A stretch of 64,000 nt of DNA, from positions 611,437 to 675,436 of the forward strand of contig NZ_BDFE01000015.1 in NCBI RefSeq assembly GCF_001748225.1. The letters are read 5' to 3'. The stretch comes from Desulfoplanes formicivorans (GTDB lineage: Bacteria > Desulfobacterota > Desulfovibrionia > Desulfovibrionales > Desulfomicrobiaceae). The position numbers and the translations under genes were made by a program. The notes beneath the pieces are model-generated. The model saw only the letters and a list, made by a program, of their open reading frames with translations. It did no database searches and was not told the origin of the DNA. Of the stretch, positions 20,809 to 48,358 are shown piece by piece (position 1 is the first letter of the stretch; the number at the start of each line of letters is the position of its first letter).

Positions 20809-22758
20809 TCAGCTTGTTTGGGTTGCGTCCAGTCCCTGACCGGGCTGCATGATCTGGCCGGTGAGGGTGGTTTCATAGCCTCCAAGGGCCTGGATCTGCT
20901 GGCGGGTTGATTCCTGGCCGATCATGGCCAGCAGGGTCTGGATTTTGGGGTCGTTGTAATGGGCCCTGGGGATGAGCAGGTCGTAGCGTTCCCGGGCCAG
21001 AGGGACGAAATCCAGGTTCAGGGCCTTGGCCGCGGCATAGATGCCCAGACCGCAGTCGGCGGCTCCCGTGAGCACGTTGGCAGCCAGGGCCATGTGAGTG
21101 AACTCCTCGCTGTCATATCCCACAATATCGGCGGGAGATTTTCCTGCCTGTTTGAGGGCGTGGTCAAAAAGAATGCGTGTTCCCGCACCCCGCTGGCGGT
21201 TCACGAACCGGGCCTGTTTGGCGATCACATCCTTGATGCCGGTAATGTGCAGGGGATTGCCCGGCGCGACAATGAAACCCTGATGGCGAATGGCCAGATT
21301 GACAACGATCAGGTCCATGTCTGGCAGGTACTTGCGGATAAAGGGAAAATTGTAGTCTTCGGTTTCCGGGTCAAAGAGGTGGGCGCCAGCGATCATGGTT
21401 GATCCGGATTTGAGGGCCATGAGTCCGCCCATGGAGCCCACATGGCTGGACGCCAGGTACAAGGGGTTTTCAAGCCCCATGAGCTTGTTGGCCAGAAGGT
21501 CCACGGTGTTGTCGTGGCTGCCGATGACCAGCAGGGTTTGGTGGAGTTCGGCCTGGGGAACCAGCAGCCTAGCCTTAACGGTTGCTCCCTGTTCCACCCC
21601 TTCGCTGGTGGCTGGTATGGAGGTCATCCCGTGGGCCTTGGTCAGGGTGGTGATCATGCCCGCGCCCCTGGCCAGGGGGATGGCCACGTTCTTTTCCCCA
21701 ACCCGGCCAATGGCCAGTCTGACCCGTTCTTCAAGGCCCAGTTTGGACGGGACCTTGCGGGCCATTTCCACGGTGATTTCAGGCCGTTCCCATACCCTTG
21801 CACGTGAGAGCCAGGCCACGATCGGGCCCAGCAATTCCTCGATACAGACCACGGCACTGACCGGATAGCCCGGGGCGCCCACCACAAGCCGGCCCCTGAC
21901 CGTGCCCAGCATGGACGGCTTGCCCGGCATGACAGCAATGCCATGAACCAGAACCTCTCCCATCCTGCTGATCACTGATTTTGAATAATCCTTGCTTCCG
22001 GCCGAAGAGCCCGCCCCCACAATGACCACATGGGCGCCCTGGTCAATGGCCTGATCCACGGCTTTTTGCAGGGCTTCGGGATTGTCCGGGACCGGGGTGA
22101 CTCGCTGGGTTTCACAATTCCAGGTACTGGCAAGGGCCATGAACACCTGGGAATTGCTTTCAATGACCTGGCCCGGCTTGGGCTGGGGACGGGTGGTGAA
22201 ATCCAGGACCTCGTCACCCGTGGGGATGATGGTCATGCGCACGGGTTCCCATACCGAGACCTCCCAGATACCCGCGCTGAGCAGGGCGCCGATGTCATAG
22301 GGGGACAGGGTGCGATTCTGGGGCAAAAGCAGTTCCGTGGCCACGATGTCTTCGCCAATGCGTCGGACATGCTGCATGGGAAAGGCGCCCTTTTCAATGG
22401 TCACGCTTTCGCCCGTGTCCTCAATGACGTCTTCGATCATGATCACCGCGTCCATGTCCGCAGGCAGGGGGTTGCCCGTGTTCACGGGAATATAGTCCCT
22501 GTTGCGGACCAGCTGGATGGGCCGACCTTCCCGGGCGGCAAAGGTGGACGCTGCTTTGACCGCGATGCCGTCCATGGCTGCGGAATGAAAGGTGGGCGAC
22601 GAGGTCCTGGCGTACACGGGTCGGGCCAGAACCCTGCCTGCGGCCTCGTGGGAAGGGATGGTTTCCTGCTTGATCAATCCGTCCCGGTCCAGGGCCGCGG
22701 TGACCTTGTCTATGGCTTCGGGAATGGTCATCAAATCGAGGTAAATGTTTCGTTCCAT
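20809..22758 (-). CDS. MoeA-type molybdopterin biosynthesis protein fused to a periplasmic-binding-like (PBP) domain
   Basis: 649 aa. Residues 1-415 are MoeA (HSAAMDGIAVKA; YIPVNTGNPLPADMDAVIMIEDV; GDEVLDFTTRP with P-G-x-V-x-x-S/N; VIVGAGSSAGSKDYS; GKPSMLGTVRGRLVVGAPGYPVSAVV). Residues about 420-640 are a LysR/ModA-like ligand-binding domain (VIGSHDNTVDLLANKLM, SSHVGSMGGLMALKSGSTMIAGAHLFDPETEDYN, FVNRQRGAGTRILFDHAL). The MoeA part inserts Mo or W into the pterin. The fused domain probably senses an oxyanion or cofactor precursor. Such fusions are known in archaea and Deltaproteobacteria. It faces moeA across heptad-array elements. Confidence 0.9.
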   Translation of the reverse strand: MERNIYLDLMTIPEAIDKVTAALDRDGLIKQETIPSHEAAGRVLARPVYARTSSPTFHSAAMDGIAVKAASTFAAREGRPIQLVRNRDYIPVNTGNPLPADMDAVIMIEDVIEDTGESVTIEKGAFPMQHVRRIGEDIVATELLLPQNRTLSPYDIGALLSAGIWEVSVWEPVRMTIIPTGDEVLDFTTRPQPKPGQVIESNSQVFMALASTWNCETQRVTPVPDNPEALQKAVDQAIDQGAHVVIVGAGSSAGSKDYSKSVISRMGEVLVHGIAVMPGKPSMLGTVRGRLVVGAPGYPVSAVVCIEELLGPIVAWLSRARVWERPEITVEMARKVPSKLGLEERVRLAIGRVGEKNVAIPLARGAGMITTLTKAHGMTSIPATSEGVEQGATVKARLLVPQAELHQTLLVIGSHDNTVDLLANKLMGLENPLYLASSHVGSMGGLMALKSGSTMIAGAHLFDPETEDYNFPFIRKYLPDMDLIVVNLAIRHQGFIVAPGNPLHITGIKDVIAKQARFVNRQRGAGTRILFDHALKQAGKSPADIVGYDSEEFTHMALAANVLTGAADCGLGIYAAAKALNLDFVPLARERYDLLIPRAHYNDPKIQTLLAMIGQESTRQQIQALGGYETTLTGQIMQPGQGLDATQTS

Positions 22759-22789: not shown

Positions 22790-23101
22790 CATTTAAGTAC
22801 GCAGTGCACTTAAGTACGCAGTACTCAGTACGCAGAGCGCAGTTATAAAATTTATAATGTTCATGAATCATTAAAATACATTTGTTTCGCAATATCATGT
22901 TAAATTCACAAGATGCCGAAAACCACTGCGTACTGTGTTCTGCGCACTGTGCACTCACGTGCGCAGTTATAAAAAAATCATAATGTCATTAAGTCTTTTA
23001 TATGCATTTGTTTCGCAGTATCATGTTAAATTCCCAAAATGCCGAAAACCACTGCCTCCTGTGTTCTGCGCACTGCGTACTTAAGTGCCCTGTGCACTTA
23101 A
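22790..23101. repeat. Two tandem heptad-array elements with AT-rich payloads
   Basis: The block reads forward heptads (22790-22842), a payload of about 82 bases, a mixed reverse-then-forward array (22925-22966), a related payload of about 85 bases, and reverse heptads (23052-23101) ending ACTTAA at the moeA stop. Payloads share a nearly identical right half beginning CATTTGTTTCGCA. The two copies are offset by 124 to 126 bases. Forward unit AG[T/G][G/A]C[G/A]C, reverse unit G[C/T]G[C/T][A/C]CT. It fills the 343-base gap between moeA and the MoeA-PBP gene. Confidence 0.85.
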
Positions 23102-24346
23102 TCATATTTTCCACACCATAACCTTTGTTCCCGCAAGCAGTCCTTCGCTTTCAGCTGGTATGCGCACCAGGCCGTCGCATTGGACCAGGGTCTTGAGGAG
23201 TCCTGATTTGCCGGTTCTGGGCACGGCCTGGAGGGGTTCCTGTGGTGTGGCTTGTTTGAGTTCGACCCGGACATAGTCTTCCCTGCCCTGTTTGGAAGAG
23301 ACATTGGTGGCCAGGGTGGCCGGGATCTGCGGTCGCAGGGAGGTGTCCCAGGCCTGGGTGCTGCCTCCCAGGTGGTGGATGAGGGGGCAGCCAAAAACGA
23401 GCATGATCACTTGTGCCGACGTGACCTGGCCTGGCAGTCCCATGATCGGTTTGCCGCCTACCCTGGCCAGGATGGTTGGCTTGCCCGGACTCACGGACAC
23501 GCCGTGGGCCAAAATTTCGGAATCAGGCAGGGACAAGATGGCCTCAATGGTCAGGTCCCGCGTGCCCACGGAAGATCCCCCGGAGATGAACAGGACGTCG
23601 TTTTCGGCCAGACCCTGCTTGAGCATGGCCACGATGCTGGCAAGATCGTCCTTGACCAGACCGTAGGCCTGGACATGGGCGTTTGCCTTGCCCAGAAGAC
23701 AGGCCAGGGTGGAGGTGTTCACATCCCTGACTTGGCCTGGACGCGGGGTTGTGTTGACATCCACCAGTTCGTCACCCGTGGAAATGATTCCGGCCCGGAC
23801 CCGTTTGAAAACCGTAATGGAGGTGATCCCCAAGGCCGCCAGCAGGCCGATTTCCTGGGGACGAAGGCGTTTGCCCCTGGGAAGGATGGGCGCTCCCTGG
23901 GCAACATCCTCACCCGCAAGCATGACATTGTCTCCCGGGGCCACGCTCTTGCGGATCTCAATGGTCCCGGCTCCCAGCTCCTGGGTATGCTCGACCATGA
24001 CCACGGCATTGCCGCCCGGAGGCAGGGTGCCGCCGGTGGTGATGGACATGCATTCCCCGCGCTCAAGGGGAGCTGTGCTCAGCTCGTCGATTTTGAGTTC
24101 GGCTTTGTTTTCGAGATAGGCGGGATTGGCTTCGCTGGCCCCGAAGGTGTCTTCGGCATGCACGGCAAACCCGTCCATGGATGACCGATGCACCATGGGG
24201 AGATTTTCAGGGGAGGTGATGGCTGTTGCCAGCATTCGGTCAACGCCTGTACGAAAATCAATCTGTTCCCTGGCAACAGTGGGAAAGGTTTTAAGCAGGC
24301 GGCACAATTCCCTGGAGGAAATAACGCGGAAGAAGTCCTGTTTCAT
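23102..24346 (-). CDS. moeA: Molybdopterin molybdenumtransferase MoeA
   Basis: 414 aa. HRSSMDGFAVHAED (PMDGYA-type motif), MSITTGGTLPPGGNAVVMVEHTQEL, ISTGDELVDVNTTPRPGQVRDVNTSTL, DVLFISGGSSVGTRDLTIEAI, SPGKPTILARVGGKPIMGLPGQVTSAQVIM: all the MoeA active-site blocks. It ligates molybdate or tungstate to adenylated molybdopterin. A second MoeA, fused to a PBP domain, lies just downstream. In organisms with two MoeA genes one may serve Mo and the other W; that is only inference here. AAGG precedes the start; the stop is directly followed by a heptad array. Confidence 0.95.
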   Translation of the reverse strand: MKQDFFRVISSRELCRLLKTFPTVAREQIDFRTGVDRMLATAITSPENLPMVHRSSMDGFAVHAEDTFGASEANPAYLENKAELKIDELSTAPLERGECMSITTGGTLPPGGNAVVMVEHTQELGAGTIEIRKSVAPGDNVMLAGEDVAQGAPILPRGKRLRPQEIGLLAALGITSITVFKRVRAGIISTGDELVDVNTTPRPGQVRDVNTSTLACLLGKANAHVQAYGLVKDDLASIVAMLKQGLAENDVLFISGGSSVGTRDLTIEAILSLPDSEILAHGVSVSPGKPTILARVGGKPIMGLPGQVTSAQVIMLVFGCPLIHHLGGSTQAWDTSLRPQIPATLATNVSSKQGREDYVRVELKQATPQEPLQAVPRTGKSGLLKTLVQCDGLVRIPAESEGLLAGTKVMVWKI

Positions 24347-31067: not shown

Positions 31068-31098
31068 AGTGCGCAGTGCACAGGGCGCAGTGCGCAGG
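31068..31098 (+). repeat. Heptad array inside the mla operon
   Basis: Four units on the plus strand: AGTGCGC, AGTGCAC, AGGGCGC, AGTGCGC, then AGG. It lies in the 84-base gap between mlaF and mlaD, and is antisense to the operon. No reverse array is seen nearby. Confidence 0.8.
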
Positions 31099-35387: not shown

Positions 35388-35420
35388 AGGACTCACGGGT
35401 ACAAAGGGAAGGCTCTGATT

Positions 35421-35575
35421 TTTTCATAAGGAACCTGTCCCCATGTTCACGCAGAAGTGCGCAGTACACAGTGCGCAGGGCGCAGGGAAAACAACGTGCC
35501 CAATTGAACAACAACGAGCCAGGCTCTGAATCCTCTGGCTCGTGAGCAACCAAACGCGACTTTTACGCGTAAGCC
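35421..35575 (+). repeat. Repeat block A, copy 1 (REP-like site + heptad array + shared tail)
   Basis: TTTTTCATAAGGAACCTGTCC (REP-like site at 35432), AAGTGCGCAGTACACAGTGCGC heptads (35455-35487), then a tail ending ACGCGTAAG. The heptad array and the tail recur, with a few changes, at 37178-37303. Between the blocks lie the decayed RAYT remnant and the toxin-antitoxin genes. Confidence 0.82.
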
Positions 35576-35888
35576 CCCTGTGTCAGGGAAGTTGTCGCCT
35601 CTTCTGAAATTCATTTAAAGACCAACTAACCTGTCCCTATGTTCGCTTCATGGATCTAATTGATCCCAAATTGGGACCAATTTGGGACTCTTTTATGGAT
35701 CAAAATGGTACCAAAATTTTTTTATAATGGGTGGAAGTAACACCGATCATAAAAAAGCGTTACCGTTACTAATTTTCAGTTGATGTAACATACATAGTAG
35801 GAATTTTTTGAAAATTTTTAAAGTAGATGTAACACTTGGAGAAAACATCATTTTGTCAAGTGCTGGTTATGACAAAATTTTCATAAAA
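35576..35888. other. A/T-rich intergenic stretch with one REP-like site
   Basis: About 310 bases without a credible gene. It holds a REP-like AACCTGTCCC at 35628, a run of short imperfect repeats (GGGACCAATTTGGGAC), and TTTTCATAAAAAACC leading into the next REP-like site at 35889. It is clearly lower in GC than the flanking genes. Confidence 0.5.
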
Positions 35889-36091
35889 AACCTGTCCCTT
35901 TATTCCTTATTCAGTCCCCATGTTTCTTCTTCCGTTTTCCCCTTTTGTCCCGGTCTCATGCTCGCAATCTTTTCATTGAGTAGACCCCACTGGCTCCGGC
36001 CAGAGGGGTGAACGTTCTGGTATCCTTTGACTTCAGAAGGTGCCTGACCTGGTCAAAAACATCCTGCACAAATTCCTTTGAGCCCAAGATA
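35889..36091 (-). pseudogene. Remnant of a REP-associated tyrosine transposase
   Basis: About 200 bases that match the 3' end and downstream flank of the intact RAYT (37409-37614). The coding part (35956-36091) reads ILGSKEFVQDVFDQVRHLLKSKDTRT and ends YSMKRLRA, as in the intact protein. It is cut at its 5' side, where the sequence jumps to TTTTTCATAAAGAACC and a further REP-like site. So about 260 N-terminal residues, including the catalytic HxH and Tyr, are missing. Confidence 0.88.
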
Positions 36092-36100
36092 CGATTTTTC

Positions 36101-36197
36101 ATAAAGAACCTGTCCCCATGTTCGCTGAAGTACGCAGTGCGCAGGGGGAACAAATGGTTTTGGTTTATTTTTTGCGGGAGACGCTGGGGCAGTGGAT
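36101..36197 (+). repeat. Repeat block B, copy 1
   Basis: REP-like site AACCTGTCCCCATGTTCGC at 36107, short heptad array (36128-36148), then TTTATTTTTTGCGGGAGACG. The same order recurs at 38501-38600, on the 5' side of the intact RAYT. Confidence 0.85.
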
Positions 36198-36239
36198 GGT
36201 GCCAAGGTGGAGGGAGGGGCAGGGCTATGTACCCGGCTT

Positions 36240-36704
36240 CTATGCTCCTTGAAAGGGGGAAGTCCCTGGATGACATTTTTTGACCAGACTTTCCCAATCG
36301 TCTGGCGGATTTCCCTGTTCGAGCATTTTTGTGAAAACAGCGTACGGATCTGATTTGCTTCCCTGTTTGCGGAGAGAGCGTGCATCATTGACCCATGCAT
36401 AGACAATGACCTTTGATTGTGAGTCAAATCTAAAAAAGAGTCTGAATCGTCTACCGATCTTGGCACGCCGCCAGTGGCGATAGGTTGTGCCCATGGTGTT
36501 GCCCTGGCGGAAGCGATCACTGTTGGGATTCTTTGGAATTACATCCAAAACAAGGTGGGAAATGGCTGCATAAAGTTTATAGGTTGCACTGGTTTCCAGC
36601 TCGGCCGGTCTTTTTTGTTTGATGCGGTTGATGGCTTTTTCGAGATTGCAGATCTGCTCCTTGATTCCATCATGAAAGAGCAAGGTCCAGCCATGTCGTT
36701 GCAT
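36240..36704 (-). CDS. yhaV: YhaV-family type II toxin (ribosome-dependent RNase)
   Basis: 154 aa, the same length as E. coli YhaV. Contains HGWTLLFHDGIKEQICNLEKAI, YKLYAAISHLVLDVIPKNPNSDRFRQGNTMGTTYRHWRRAKIGRRFRLFFRFDSQSKVIVYAWVNDARSLRKQGSKSDPYAVFTKMLEQGNPPDDWESL, the conserved YhaV core of the RelE-like fold. It is coupled to prlF by ATGA. YhaV cleaves mRNA and rRNA and is neutralised by PrlF. The pair lies between two RAYT-type repeat units. Confidence 0.95.
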   Translation of the reverse strand: MQRHGWTLLFHDGIKEQICNLEKAINRIKQKRPAELETSATYKLYAAISHLVLDVIPKNPNSDRFRQGNTMGTTYRHWRRAKIGRRFRLFFRFDSQSKVIVYAWVNDARSLRKQGSKSDPYAVFTKMLEQGNPPDDWESLVKKCHPGTSPFQGA

Positions 36705-37024
36705 CAGAGATCAACCTCGCCATCAATGTCATTATTGAGGTCAACAGGTTGGTTGAGCATGGTAAGCATCGAATCTTGCAAATGTTTTGGCAGATCTCGG
36801 AGGTGCTTGCCCTGTCGCAAATCCTTTTCCATCAGACCGAGAAACTTGGTAATGGCAGGATCTTCATGCTCGTTTGTCCGTAGACTGCGTACAATGATTT
36901 GCTCCCCCTGGATTTCAAAGCTGAGTTTATTGCCACTGGTTAGCCCGAGTGCGGTTCGAATGGACTTGGGGAGAGTGATTTGTCCTTTAGACGTGATCGT
37001 TGCGGTTGCTCGAATGGGAATCAT
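36704..37024 (-). CDS. prlF: PrlF-family antitoxin (AbrB/SpoVT fold)
   Basis: 106 aa. ATG 37024 with AGGAGG 5 bases upstream. N-terminal swapped-hairpin DNA-binding domain (RATATITSKGQITLPKSIRTALGLTSGNKLSFEI), then the C-terminal part that neutralises YhaV (TKFLGLMEKDLRQGKHLRDLPKHLQDSMLTML). It would bind its own promoter together with YhaV. Upstream (37025-37180) is repeat-rich and must hold the promoter. Confidence 0.95.
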   Translation of the reverse strand: MIPIRATATITSKGQITLPKSIRTALGLTSGNKLSFEIQGEQIIVRSLRTNEHEDPAITKFLGLMEKDLRQGKHLRDLPKHLQDSMLTMLNQPVDLNNDIDGEVDL

Positions 37025-37095
37025 GTGAACCTCCTGGATTATGTCTTTGTAAGGATTGTTCCTTACCGCGTCAACATAAGAAGAAAGCCCATTTC

Positions 37096-37161
37096 TATAC
37101 AAAGAATATGCAACCTGTCCCTTTGTTCAATACAAAGAATATGCAACCTGTCCCTTTGTTC
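37096..37161 (+). repeat. 33-bp tandem duplication containing REP-like sites
   Basis: Unit starting ATACAAAGAATATGCAACC occurs twice without a gap (37096-37128 and 37129-37161), each with AACCTGTCCCTTTGTTC. The two are identical as read. Confidence 0.9.
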
Positions 37162-37177
37162 AGTCCCTTTGTTCACT

Positions 37178-37303
37178 CTTTAAGTGCGCAGTACGCAGTG
37201 CGCAGGGCACAGAGAAAAACAACGTGCCTAATTGAACAACAACGAACCAGGCTCTCAATTTTCTGGCTGGTGAGCAACCAAACGCGACTTTCACGCGTAA
37301 GCA
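37178..37303 (+). repeat. Repeat block A, copy 2
   Basis: Heptad array TTAAGTGCGCAGTACGCAGT... (37178-37212), then the tail shared with 35489-35575, ending ACGCGTAAG. It precedes a 105-base stretch without a gene and the REP-like site at 37409 on the 3' side of the intact RAYT. Confidence 0.85.
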
Positions 37304-37477
37304 GATAGATATCGATAAAAGTATCTCTATATCAGCCGGTTATGAGTTGAGTCTTTGTAAGACCCTCCTTGGGATTTTATGGCTGATCGTTATCGTCTTT
37401 TTACAAAGAACCTGTCCCTTTATTCCTTTATTCAGTCCCCATGTTCACTTCTTCCGTTTTCCCCTTTTGTCCCGGTC

Positions 37478-38395
37478 TCATGCTCGCAATCTTTTCATGG
37501 AATAGACCCCGCTGGTTCCGGCAAGGGGGGTGAAGACTCGGGTATCCTTTGACTTCAGAAGGTGCCTGACCTGGTCAAAAACATCCTGCACAAATTCCTT
37601 TGAACCCAGGATTCCGGCGTCGGAAAAATACCTGCTCCGGTAGCCAAAGAGCTCATATCGCTTGAGCTCAAAGTTCTTTTTGCGTTCCTGTGCCACGATC
37701 CTGGGGTCCATGGGTTTTCCCTTGCCCGTGTCCACAGCTCCTGTTTCATACACGAATTGTCTATACGCCCGCAGGACGGCGGTCTGGTCGTATTCTCCCC
37801 ATTCTTTCATGCCGAAATCCATGGAGAGGAGGTTGTCCTGATTGTTGGTCTGGACATGATAGCCCAATGTGCACCAGCGGTACTGTTCGGGGCGTTTGGC
37901 AATGTTTGCACGGATGGGATTGAGATCCACATAGGCCAGCAGGTTGATCAGAGAATGGCCGTTTTGCACGATGAGTGATTTGAACCGGTCCCCCCAGAAA
38001 TAGCCCTTGCGGTTGTGGTGCTTGTTGTAGAAGTGCGTGAATCCCTGCTTGATATCCTTGACCAATTTGGAAAGGGAGGACCACCTTTCCCTGAATTGGG
38101 CAATGGTTTTGGGAGTGATCTCCCGCCCCTTGGGAAACCAGGATTCCAAGCGTCTTTTCATGGCGTCGTCAGAAAGGTAATCGCTGGGGTGCATGCGGAC
38201 AACAAGGTGGAAGTGGTTGGACATGATGCAGAAACCAAGCACGTCGACGAAATAGAATCGACTGAAATGGCGGATGAGATGGAGAAGATAGTCCTTTTCA
38301 CTGTCTTTGAGAGGAAACCCGTCAAGAGCGGTGCGGGAAATGACATGGTACACCGTGGGAACATGGGAACGAACGAATCGGGCGATACGTGGCAT
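37478..38395 (-). CDS. REP-associated tyrosine transposase (RAYT, IS200-like Y1 family)
   Basis: 305 aa, ATG 38395 with AAGGGGG upstream. The HUH motif is IMSNHFHLVVRM near residue 58; the Y1 region is GYFWGDRFKSLIVQNGHSLINLLAYVDLNPIRANI, with a Tyr near residue 158-160 as catalytic candidate. RAYTs cut REP hairpins as single strands and are thought to spread them. It is flanked by REP-like AACCTGTCCC sites at 37409 and 38501. A decayed copy lies 1.5 kb away, so this family has moved or been duplicated here. Confidence 0.93.
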   Translation of the reverse strand: MPRIARFVRSHVPTVYHVISRTALDGFPLKDSEKDYLLHLIRHFSRFYFVDVLGFCIMSNHFHLVVRMHPSDYLSDDAMKRRLESWFPKGREITPKTIAQFRERWSSLSKLVKDIKQGFTHFYNKHHNRKGYFWGDRFKSLIVQNGHSLINLLAYVDLNPIRANIAKRPEQYRWCTLGYHVQTNNQDNLLSMDFGMKEWGEYDQTAVLRAYRQFVYETGAVDTGKGKPMDPRIVAQERKKNFELKRYELFGYRSRYFSDAGILGSKEFVQDVFDQVRHLLKSKDTRVFTPLAGTSGVYSMKRLRA

Positions 38396-38500
38396 GGGAA
38401 CCCCCTTCTTGGTAGTGGTTACAAGGCAAGGGTTTGAAAAGGAAAGATAAAGAAAAGTTTGGATTTGCCTTACCACGGGGGAGGTGTTTTTTCAACATGT

Positions 38501-38600
38501 AACCTGTCCCCATGTTCGCTGAAGTGCACAGTACGCAGTGCGCAGGGCACAGGGGAACAACTGGTTTTTGTTTATTTTTTGCGGGAGACGCTGGGGCAGA
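38501..38600 (+). repeat. Repeat block B, copy 2, at the 5' side of the intact RAYT
   Basis: REP-like AACCTGTCCCCATGTTCGC, heptads 38522-38553 (AGTGCAC, AGTACGC, AGTGCGC, AGGGCAC), then the TTTATTTTTTGCGGGAGACG tail also present at 36163-36197. Confidence 0.87.
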
Positions 38601-38660
38601 AGTTGGCGGACAGGCAGGGGAGGGCAGGCGGATCGGGTGGCGCAGGGCAGAGGAAACAAC

Positions 38661-42362: not shown

Positions 42363-42869
42363 ATGGTTTCCAGACGAGATTTTTTATTCAGCGCGGTGCG
42401 CCGGGTGCGCCAGAATGTGGAGGAGGCGGGTTCGGTTTCTGTTTCCAAACCGGTTTCTGGCATTGGTAAAGAAATCAGGGAGGCCGACCAGTTGTTTGGC
42501 CAGGGAAAGTGGGAGCAGGCCCGGGACGCGTACAAGGAAGTTCTGGCCCGGGAACCCCATCATCTTGAGGCGCGGGTGCAGGTGATGATCTGCCACTACC
42601 GGCTGGATGAAATCAATCCGGCCAAGGTGTGCGCCCGACAGGTTCTGCAGAAAGATCCTGCAAACCATACGGCCAGGCTGTTTCTGGGGCTGGCATGGCT
42701 CAAAAAGGACAATCTGGAAAAGGCCATGGAGGCCTGGGACGGGTATTTTGACACCACCAATCCCCAGGTGCTCCGGGAAGTCAATGTGCACAAGGCCCTT
42801 TTCGAGTCAGGAGAAGAGCTCGACTGCCAGGCCGTTGCCCGGGAAATGGAGAAGGTGATATTTGTTTAA
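42363..42869 (+). CDS. TPR protein with a twin-arginine-like N-terminus
   Basis: 168 aa. ATG 42363, GGAGGTGA about 10 bases upstream. N-terminus VSRRDFLFSAVRRVRQ resembles a Tat motif (SRRDFLF) but no hydrophobic signal core follows, so export is doubtful. Residues about 40-140 hold TPR-like repeats (IREADQLFGQGKWEQARDAYKEVLAREPHHLEARVQVMICHYRLDEINPAKVCARQVL, then TARLFLGLAWLKKDNLEKAMEAW). SRR-F-L N-termini without a hydrophobic core are seen in redox-enzyme chaperones. The stop TAA lies inside the first unit of the following heptad array. Confidence 0.8.
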   Translation: MVSRRDFLFSAVRRVRQNVEEAGSVSVSKPVSGIGKEIREADQLFGQGKWEQARDAYKEVLAREPHHLEARVQVMICHYRLDEINPAKVCARQVLQKDPANHTARLFLGLAWLKKDNLEKAMEAWDGYFDTTNPQVLREVNVHKALFESGEELDCQAVAREMEKVIFV

Positions 42870-43449
42870 GTGCGCAGTACACTTAAGTGCGCAGTACGCA
42901 GGGCACAGTGCGCAGGGCACTCAAGTACGCAGGGCGCAGAAAAAATATTTTCGCGGTAAGGCAGGGAAGAGGGCGCAGAAGTGAAAGGGGTAAGTCAATG
43001 GATACGCCACGTCATGGATTTGAGAATCTTGAGGTCTGGAAAAGGGGGTGCAGGCTTGCCGTAGCCCTTCATGGGGCAATGAAAACAGGTAAAGATTTTT
43101 GTTTTCGGGATCAAATATGGCGATCTGCCCTTTCCATTCCGAGCAATATTGCAGAAGGTTATGAGCGGAAAAGCCCCAAGGATTTCATCAGATTTTTGGT
43201 CATTGCCAAGGGATCATGCGGGGAATTGAGGACGCAACTTTATATCGCACAACAGGTCGGTTTCCTAAACAAGAAACACTGTCAGGATTACATCGGGGAA
43301 ACCCAAGAAATTTCAGCCATGCTCTCCGGCCTGATCAAAACCATCCAACACAAACATTCCATCAACTAACACCTCCCATTGAGCGCAAGCACCAAGCTCT
43401 GCGCCCTGCACACTGTGCCCTGCCTACTCAAGTGCGCCCTGCGCACTTT
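42866..43449 (+). mobile_element. Heptad-array element enclosing a four-helix-bundle gene
   Basis: A forward array (42866-42939: AGTGCGC, AGTACAC, TTA, AGTGCGC, AGTACGC, AGGGCAC, AGTGCGC, AGGGCAC, TCA, AGTACGC, AGGGCGC) and a reverse array (43397-43449) enclose a payload of about 457 bases with one gene. The left end overlaps the TPR stop codon; the right end reaches the stop codon of the histidine-kinase-like gene at 43451. No transposase is visible. I infer one inserted unit; mobility is not shown. Confidence 0.65.
42998..43369 (+). CDS. Four-helix-bundle protein (23S rRNA intervening-sequence/Avd-like family)
   Basis: 123 aa, ATG 42998 with AAGGGG. GFENLEVWKRGCRLAVALHGAMKTGKDFCFRDQIWRSALSIPSNIAEGYERKSPKDFIRFLVIAKGSCGELRTQLYIAQQVGFLNKKHCQDYIGETQEISAMLSGLI is the S23/IVS four-helix-bundle pattern (W-x-x-x-x-x-L near the start, R-S-A-x-S-I-x-x-N-I-A-E-G, GSxxELxTQL). 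The family is known from intervening sequences in 23S rRNA genes and, as Avd, from diversity-generating retroelements, where it binds RNA or the reverse transcriptase. No rRNA or reverse transcriptase is near. The gene lies wholly between inverted heptad arrays. Confidence 0.92.
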   Translation: MDTPRHGFENLEVWKRGCRLAVALHGAMKTGKDFCFRDQIWRSALSIPSNIAEGYERKSPKDFIRFLVIAKGSCGELRTQLYIAQQVGFLNKKHCQDYIGETQEISAMLSGLIKTIQHKHSIN

Positions 43450-43450
43450 G

Positions 43451-44182
43451 CTACAACTCTGTTCGCTGGTTGGGTATTTCCAACCTGAAGGTGGTCTGTT
43501 CCCCGGTGGTGGTCAGGTCGAGGTTCCATCCGGCCTGGTCGGCAAAGAACTTGACCATGGGCAGGCCCAGGCCAAAGTGGTCGGGCCGGGTGGTGGCGTG
43601 TTCTTCGAACGGGGCCAGGTCATGGGGGAAGGTGGTGGGCGAGGTCAGGGTGCATACGATTCCCTGACCCAGGGGGGCCATTTCAAAACCCAGATTGTGC
43701 TGGCCGCCCGGATCCTTGTCCATGCAGGCTTCCACCGCGTTTTTCAGTGCCTCGTCCACGGTCAGGGTGAGCAGGAAGGGGGGAAGCTGCAAGGTGGGCA
43801 GGGAATCGTGGATCGCCATATCCCTGATGATCTTGTGTTTGTAGAACAGGTTGTTGGTCCAGAATCTGTCCACCCATTCCATGAACTGGCCCACATCGAT
43901 CATGGTCACTTCTTCGTCCATAAAGAAGCTGTGCAGCTCGTTGTCCCGAAGCATTTCCGCCAGTTTGTTCACGGCCTGGGTCAGCCTGTCGAATTTGGGC
44001 AGGAGATCCGCGGCCGGCATGTCCGGCTGGCGGTGGATCTTGCCCCGGAAAAGTTCCAGCTGCATTTCCAGAACGTGGCAGAAATTATTGGCGTTGTGGG
44101 TCATACCGGGGATCTGTCCGCCGGCATTGGCAAGAACGCGGGTACGGGCCAGGTGCAACCACTCATCATAGGTTCTGCTCAC
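43451..44182 (-). CDS. Histidine-kinase-like protein
   Basis: 243 aa, GTG start overlapping the PilZ-gene stop by 4 bases. A degenerate H-box (GQIPGMTHNANNFCHVLEMQLEL) near residue 30 precedes an HATPase domain: N-box VDEALKNAVEACMDKDPGG, G-box HFGLGLPMVKFFADQAGWNLDLTTTGEQTTFRLEIP. No membrane segment or sensory domain, so it is cytoplasmic and probably takes input from a partner such as the PilZ protein. The H-box is unusual; phosphorylation at His is not certain. The stop codon abuts a heptad array. Confidence 0.78.
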   Translation of the reverse strand: MSRTYDEWLHLARTRVLANAGGQIPGMTHNANNFCHVLEMQLELFRGKIHRQPDMPAADLLPKFDRLTQAVNKLAEMLRDNELHSFFMDEEVTMIDVGQFMEWVDRFWTNNLFYKHKIIRDMAIHDSLPTLQLPPFLLTLTVDEALKNAVEACMDKDPGGQHNLGFEMAPLGQGIVCTLTSPTTFPHDLAPFEEHATTRPDHFGLGLPMVKFFADQAGWNLDLTTTGEQTTFRLEIPNQRTEL

Positions 44183-48161: not shown

Positions 48162-48358
48162 GAGTGCACAGGGCACAGGAGTGCACAGTACTTCAGAGTG
48201 CGCAGTACACAGTACACAGTGCACAGGGAAAAAGGCGTCTCGAATCGATTGATGAAGGTGTCCTGCCTTCCAATGTGCTTTACATGGCCATTGCAAAAAG
48301 AAGTGATCGCCCCGGGATTATGATTCTGTGCCCTGCGTACTGCGTACTGTGTACTTTT
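48162..48358. repeat. Heptad-array inverted pair with a non-coding payload
   Basis: Forward array 48162-48227 (AGTGCAC, AGGGCAC, then AGTGCAC, AGTACTT, and AGTGCGC, AGTACAC, AGTACAC, AGTGCAC, AGGG) and reverse array 48326-48358 ending GTACTTTTTT at the purH stop. The payload of about 98 bases carries no ORF. The element fills the gap between the RNB gene start and the AICAR-transformylase stop. Confidence 0.82.

Follow-up and report, generated by a model that had tools for sequence, protein, structure and literature searches.

The window, a stretch of 64,000 nucleotides from contig NZ_BDFE01000015.1 of Desulfoplanes formicivorans (contig C15 of the 3.0-Mb genome G000), carries a non-coding block of heptad arrays and payload sequence between the genes moeA and moeA-PBP. 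The unit of the block's arrays is CAGTRCR, as it is in a second non-coding heptad pair and at an S23-type four-helix gene located further along the window (Table 1).

Table 1. Features of the block at 22793-23101, its neighbouring genes and other paired arrays of the window
Feature	Position	Strand	Remarks
moeA-PBP gene (MoeA domains and PBP_like)	20809..22758	-	downstream of the block
Left forward heptad array	22793..22843	+	TTAA-bounded palindromic outer end TTAAGTACGCAGTGCACTTAA at 22793-22813
Payload copy 1	22844..22923		80 bp, AT-rich (24% GC), non-coding, genome-unique
Reverse heptad array, copy 1	22924..22955	-	array scan
One-heptad remnant GTGCGCAG, where a second forward array would be	22959..22966	+	direct reading
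Payload copy 2	about 22968..23049		84% identity to copy 1
Right reverse heptad array	23050..23101	-	palindromic outer end TTAAGTGCCCTGTGCACTTAA at 23081-23101
moeA gene	23102..24346	-	stop codon directly abutted by the block
S23/IVP four-helix gene element	42869..43451	+	forward array 42869-42939, reverse array 43396-43451
S23/IVP four-helix gene (PF05635, TIGR02436)	42998-43369	+	PF05635 E 4.3e-32
Non-coding heptad pair	48163..48355		unrelated 97-bp payload

Architecture and site of the block

The three arrays of the block score 42-46 bits, whereas three Markov controls generated for the complete window peak at 22. Direct reading reveals that the outer ends are mirror images, each consisting of TTAA, 13 nt and TTAA followed by heptads, and the outer arms (51 nt) are 80% complementary. 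The block is predicted to form one long hairpin, both as RNA (z -7.1) and as DNA (z -6.3). Rfam gave no structured-RNA match in the region 20500-44500, and the counts of promoter- and terminator-like sites were near those of shuffles.

An initial annotation, made from the letters alone, had described the locus as two tandem elements, each with a forward array, a payload and a reverse array, and as a head-to-tail duplication of one such element. Alignment confirmed that the payloads, 84% identical over 81 nt at a spacing of 126, are nearly identical in their right halves, starting from CATTTGTTTCGCA, and divergent in their left halves. The arrays and both payloads are indeed located at 22793-23101 in the order described, except that the second forward array is reduced to one heptad, GTGCGCAG, at a position where the array scans of the window do not detect an array. 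As the middle forward array comprises one heptad only, the block does not represent two complete elements, and the duplication is confined to a local 126-bp copy of payload and right array. In summary, the block is a single outer inverted array pair enclosing a tandem duplication of the payload and the right array.

We then compared the spacer between moeA and moeA-PBP with that of relatives, 16 of which were fetched and 15 of which were comparable (G020 was left out because its match is too distant). Named MoeA-PBP relatives of the genome are MAGs that carry the labels Desulfohalobiaceae, Desulfovibrio, Desulfonauticus, Desulfobacterales and other deltaproteobacteria. The spacer spans 343 bp in D. 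formicivorans, but only 15-26 nt in 13 of the comparable relatives, and in the other two the genes overlap; none of the 15 has an array at this site. On the coding strand the site reads GGATGATTTAACAATTATT in G001, a genome of the same genus, as opposed to TATGATTAA, the block and TTAAATTATT in D. formicivorans. Judged from these sequences, the block is an insertion into the moeA/moeA-PBP spacer, in line with the empty site that the initial annotation had proposed to look for in relatives. The finding it had named as fatal to its reading, the payload residing at the same site in heptad-free relatives, is excluded, since the 15 comparable relatives offer no space for it, and the payload as a conserved regulator of moeA-PBP is ruled out by the same 15 sites. 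TTAA is present at both block ends but also belongs to the palindromic ends, so that a target-site duplication is at most a candidate.

Dispersed CAGTRCR arrays and the payloads they enclose

The heptad pattern is dispersed throughout the D. formicivorans genome, which contains 58 exact 17-mers of it versus none of the reversed control, and 215 16-mers with at most one mismatch versus one in the control. Among 41 genomes searched, the heptad 17-mer is present in two, D. formicivorans and G001. In the window and 21 further stretches chosen at pattern matches we counted 49 arrays, and of the 17 neighbouring pairs separated by 350 nt or less, 15 are convergent and none divergent, one pair each being oriented ++ and --. 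CAGTRCR arrays hence exhibit the convergent proximity (15/17) by which Xanthomonas-type heptamer pairs are recognised. The arrays of the four-helix element also converge but lie too far apart to be included in the 17. Single arrays lie in the window at 31068, 35456, 36129, 37183, 38523 and 42131. The region 35400-38640 contains a Y1/RAYT-type transposase gene and a YhaV/PrlF-like toxin-antitoxin pair among partly duplicated segments, with single heptad arrays of differing length within otherwise similar sequence. At another locus (L048, 1588-2022) the 3' end of the upstream gene and the adjoining array region are duplicated beside a reverse array of 166 nt, the longest observed.

The enclosed payloads range from 49 to 239 bp and are mostly unrelated to each other, the exceptions being those of L035, L035b and L052, which have a second repeat in common. 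This second repeat is of the CTTCGCG/ACCACGAAGG kind and occurs in both orientations in the three payloads. Payload copy 1 of the block and the payload of L036 share 15 nt. The genome-wide search for the block's payload, a check suggested with the initial annotation, returned one place only and no dispersed copies, and the payload as a dispersed repeat or MITE interior is ruled out by this single location and by the mostly unrelated payloads of the other pairs. A relic of a four-helix gene is likewise ruled out, as all payload frames gave E values of at least 3 against an S23 profile of 16 proteins. The proposed kinship with the four-helix element is supported in so far as the block is a heptad-ended insertion whose CAGTRCR ends recur at the PF05635 gene, but not in the sense of a payload derived from S23.

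To compare occupied sites, one-sided flanks of 21 elements of D. formicivorans were searched in G001 (77% complete), yielding 13 matches; 12 pairs were compared and nine sites were resolved on both sides. At L049 the G001 site has a heptad pair with a different payload, and at L048 and L038 it retains an array on one side. Where D. formicivorans has the four-helix gene, the heptad pair of G001 encloses about 106 bp of unrelated non-coding payload. Because six of the nine resolved G001 sites are occupied by other DNA, which at L036 is by eye another type of inverted repeat, there is only one clean empty site. A site common to G009 and G012, two other genomes of the family (loci L203 and L211), has facing ATTCAC-type arrays with payloads that differ in length by eye, and array lengths differ between copies. 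The payload thus differs within a kept array pair at two orthologous sites, indicating that payload and arrays can part, although independent insertions at one hot spot may also account for such differences. The initial claim that arrays and payload move or copy as one unit is not supported, given these two sites, the single location of the payload and the mostly unrelated payloads of other pairs; the two copies in the block, which had been taken as proof of it, amount to a local 126-bp duplication. The ATTCAC-type arrays of G009 and G012 were found within a stretch of about 50 kb around the PF05635 gene, as opposed to the genome-wide scatter of CAGTRCR (L193-L215 in G009, G012 and G028).

Arrays at S23 genes of the class and of plasmids

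PF05635 matches were obtained in 39 of 297 genomes of the class, and D. formicivorans has a second, weaker one elsewhere in its genome. For 29 other genomes the best PF05635 locus was examined, and both flanks could be scored in 27 of these loci. Arrays are found on both sides in 18 of these 27 loci and on at least one side in 23 (score of at least 13; shuffles 0.00 and 0.10, respectively), the loci not all being independent because the sample includes related genomes; several lack arrays on one flank or on both. At a score of at least 16, the PF05635 loci contain 48 arrays in 87 kb, 20 of them with period 7, whereas MoeA loci contain two in 84 kb. Around PF05635 genes the nearest 300 nt contain 3.4 arrays per kb, and the sequence farther out 0.3. 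As controls we used 12 MoeA-PBP loci, which have no arrays on either side, and ParE-toxin loci (28 of 30 with full flanks), none of which has arrays on both sides and one of which has an array on one side. By eye, the left and right units often agree in inverted orientation, yet the unit varies from locus to locus, examples being GGTCGGT/GGTCAGT, AGTGTC, CGTAATG, GTCACGG and TGAGAGC/TGAGTGC. Inverted 6-mer sharing between the two sides amounts to 843, versus 536 ± 38 with permuted partners (reached in 0 of 2000 permutations); direct sharing is likewise raised (694 versus 473 ± 32), so that part of the 6-mer signal reflects composition.

A tblastn search with the 123-aa four-helix protein of D. 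formicivorans identified 21 plasmid records, mostly cyanobacterial, ten of which were examined (nine cyanobacterial, one from Azospirillum). Eight of the ten loci have arrays on both sides (score of at least 12). In L219 and L225 the left array is below the threshold and the inverted arms score above shuffles, as they do in nine of the ten loci, the exception being L221. In L220 the left array adjacent to the gene runs in the same direction as the right-hand array, and an outer left array is inverted. The complete Geminocystis plasmid (49.7 kb) has its sole inverted heptad pair at the four-helix gene, plus one single heptad array. In three cyanobacterial plasmids (L220, L222 and L225) the heptad-flanked four-helix genes lie within CRISPR operons, flanked by cas6 and cas4 in two and by cas10 and a cmr3-type gene in the third, and the two cas6-cas4 loci have different array units. 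Taken together, short tandem arrays in inverted orientation, most of them with period 7, flank S23 genes both in the class and on plasmids of cyanobacteria, with a locus-specific unit that usually matches across the gene.

Comparison with known systems and origin of the block

It has been suspected for decades that the intervening sequences (IVS) of rRNA, with their S23 proteins, are mobile, no mechanism being known. The 23S rRNA IVS of Coxiella burnetii carries tandem GACAGAT heptamers in variable number at its 5' end by the S23 ORF, RNase III cuts at the first heptamer, and an origin from a mobile element has been proposed (PMC4990558). S23 proteins are similar to Avd of diversity-generating retroelements (PMC10053308). 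The block resembles S23/IVS elements in its heptamers and in its terminal inverted repeats, which are predicted to pair into a long, stable stem; it differs in lying between moeA and moeA-PBP rather than in 23S rRNA, in the lack of an S23 ORF and in having longer heptad arrays at both ends. Among the titles and abstract openings listed by searches of an open-access library, none connects S23/PF05635 genes in general with heptad arrays.

In two Xanthomonas species 186 and 183 GGGAATC arrays have been described, with 70 and 75 pairs in convergent orientation; they lie close to stop codons and in stable regions and are as a rule unlinked to mobile elements (PMC4692102). Like these, the CAGTRCR arrays are convergent, intergenic, close to stop codons and capable of forming stem-loops; in contrast, the Xanthomonas unit is a different one, the emphasis of that report is on G-quadruplexes, array positions are mostly conserved between the two species, and the report draws no link to S23 (PMC4692102). 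Among proteins of solved structure, the four-helix protein of the window is most closely related to XCC0516, an S23 protein of Xanthomonas campestris (PDB 2gsc), which goes unmentioned in the main text of that report. TAACTGA heptamers of Beggiatoaceae, cyanobacteria and Bacteroidetes are similarly intergenic arrays dispersed genome-wide, described as direct repeats located mostly just 5' of start codons, one case being inverted (PMC4679880). With REPINs and RAYTs the arrays share dispersed non-coding inverted hairpin pairs and a protein gene bearing the ends of these pairs, but they are tandem heptads instead of a conserved 16-mer REP, enclose long unrelated payloads and are associated with a four-helix protein instead of a tyrosine transposase (PMC3116915). 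Where REPINs have an inverted REP pair, the block has an inverted pair and a hairpin whose ends are variable heptad arrays. A model for dispersed non-coding hairpins accompanied by a like-ended protein gene is best provided by REPINs.

Foldback transposons of eukaryotes possess inverted ends composed of short tandem units, the middle being variable or missing. The block matches this definition in its inverted ends of short tandem units and its variable middle, and differs in its bacterial host, in an unproven target duplication and in having no sequence in common with them. With somewhat more confidence than doubt we regard the block as a foldback-type insertion from the dispersed heptad-hairpin set, a non-coding relative of S23 elements, which are free-standing kin of 23S rRNA intervening sequences. 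Inverted CAGTRCR arrays around a short, exchangeable non-coding payload would have inserted between moeA and moeA-PBP in the lineage of D. formicivorans, followed by tandem duplication of payload and right array. When transcribed, the arrays would form a long stem that, by analogy with the Coxiella IVS, RNase III could cleave, so that the insert may be tolerated within an operon such as moeA/moeA-PBP or cas6-cas4. As DNA, the arrays would favour cruciforms, slippage and recombination between arrays, thereby changing array length, causing local duplication and allowing payloads to be exchanged; slippage would lengthen or shorten arrays, and array-to-array recombination or repair would swap payloads. 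Spreading might proceed via single-stranded or cruciform hairpins, the likely recognition factor being the S23 protein, the relative of Avd. That S23 would recognise the arrays and aid their spread is the bold part of this mechanism: the matched units flanking S23 genes fit such recognition, and also fit hairpin repair alone. Against the foldback-type insertion stand the facts that no transposition has been observed, that no transposase has been identified for the heptad pairs, and that the block's payload is unrelated to the S23 gene and occurs at one genomic place only. The other DNA at six of nine resolved G001 sites, the TTAA shared with the palindromic ends, the raised direct 6-mer sharing at S23 genes and the position of the Xanthomonas heptamers in stable regions apart from mobile elements (PMC4692102) also speak against it.

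It is also conceivable, if doubtful, that the arrays are simple repeats made by the host, slippage generating the arrays and template switching at hairpins their inverted partners, which would be retained near stop codons to terminate transcription in both directions or to form mRNA ends, with the S23 genes as bystanders. Heptamers have been reported as the most abundant among long 5-11-nt repeats in most genomes (citing Mrazek 2007), the Xanthomonas pairs are similar (PMC4692102), many D. formicivorans elements lie about 10 nt or less from a stop codon, and array lengths differ from copy to copy. Slippage, however, fails to explain how a 0.3-kb block with a payload arose in a spacer of 15-26 nt, and the block lies within a co-directional gene pair, where a terminator would be harmful; a host origin also leaves unexplained why unit-matched arrays are concentrated at S23 genes in several phyla and absent at ParE and MoeA-PBP genes.

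That a Y1 transposase of the RAYT type moves the heptad pairs in a REPIN-like manner appears improbable. A candidate gene at 37478-38476, whose best model is a REP-associated transposase with a score below the cut-off, is flanked by heptad arrays at 37183-37212 and 38523-38554, and REPINs are likewise built as dispersed, hairpin-forming inverted pairs (PMC3116915). Both arrays, however, are single and in the same orientation, heptads are present at 0 of 11 fetched G001 loci matching the Y1 gene even though G001 has heptads elsewhere, and S23 loci with other units have bracketing arrays of their own. Least credible of all is that the payload serves as a conserved regulatory leader of moeA-PBP, be it a non-coding RNA or an attenuator: the block ends about 35 bp 5' of the start codon and has a strong predicted fold, but it is missing in all 15 comparable relatives, matches nothing in Rfam, and its sole match with E < 0.001 among 40 relatives comprises 26 bases of a heptad array (G001). 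A lineage-specific recruitment of the block as leader may nevertheless have occurred.

In a possible though rather unlikely extension, S23 genes and non-coding hairpins might constitute one unrecognised foldback class that crosses phyla. Through recognition of heptad stems, S23 would spread hairpins that lack a gene as well as its own gene. The unit would drift as a lineage-specific address, with the ends kept alike by hairpin repair and the payloads exchangeable, and 23S rRNA IVS would be members that landed in rRNA. With locus-specific paired arrays, the limits of S23 elements outside rRNA would become recognisable; the arrays would also account for convergent heptamer pairs in unrelated bacteria and would provide an experimental handle, namely RNase III acting on heptad stems and S23 binding to them. 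The payload differences at fixed sites suggest a form of exchange of intergenic cargo in bacteria.

Two G001 sites orthologous to heptad arrays carry other period-7-like repeats, GGGAGGC/GGGAGAC in L131 (approximately 590-675) and GTTAGGT/TTTAAGG in L153 (approximately 870-930), and look as if array families were replacing each other.
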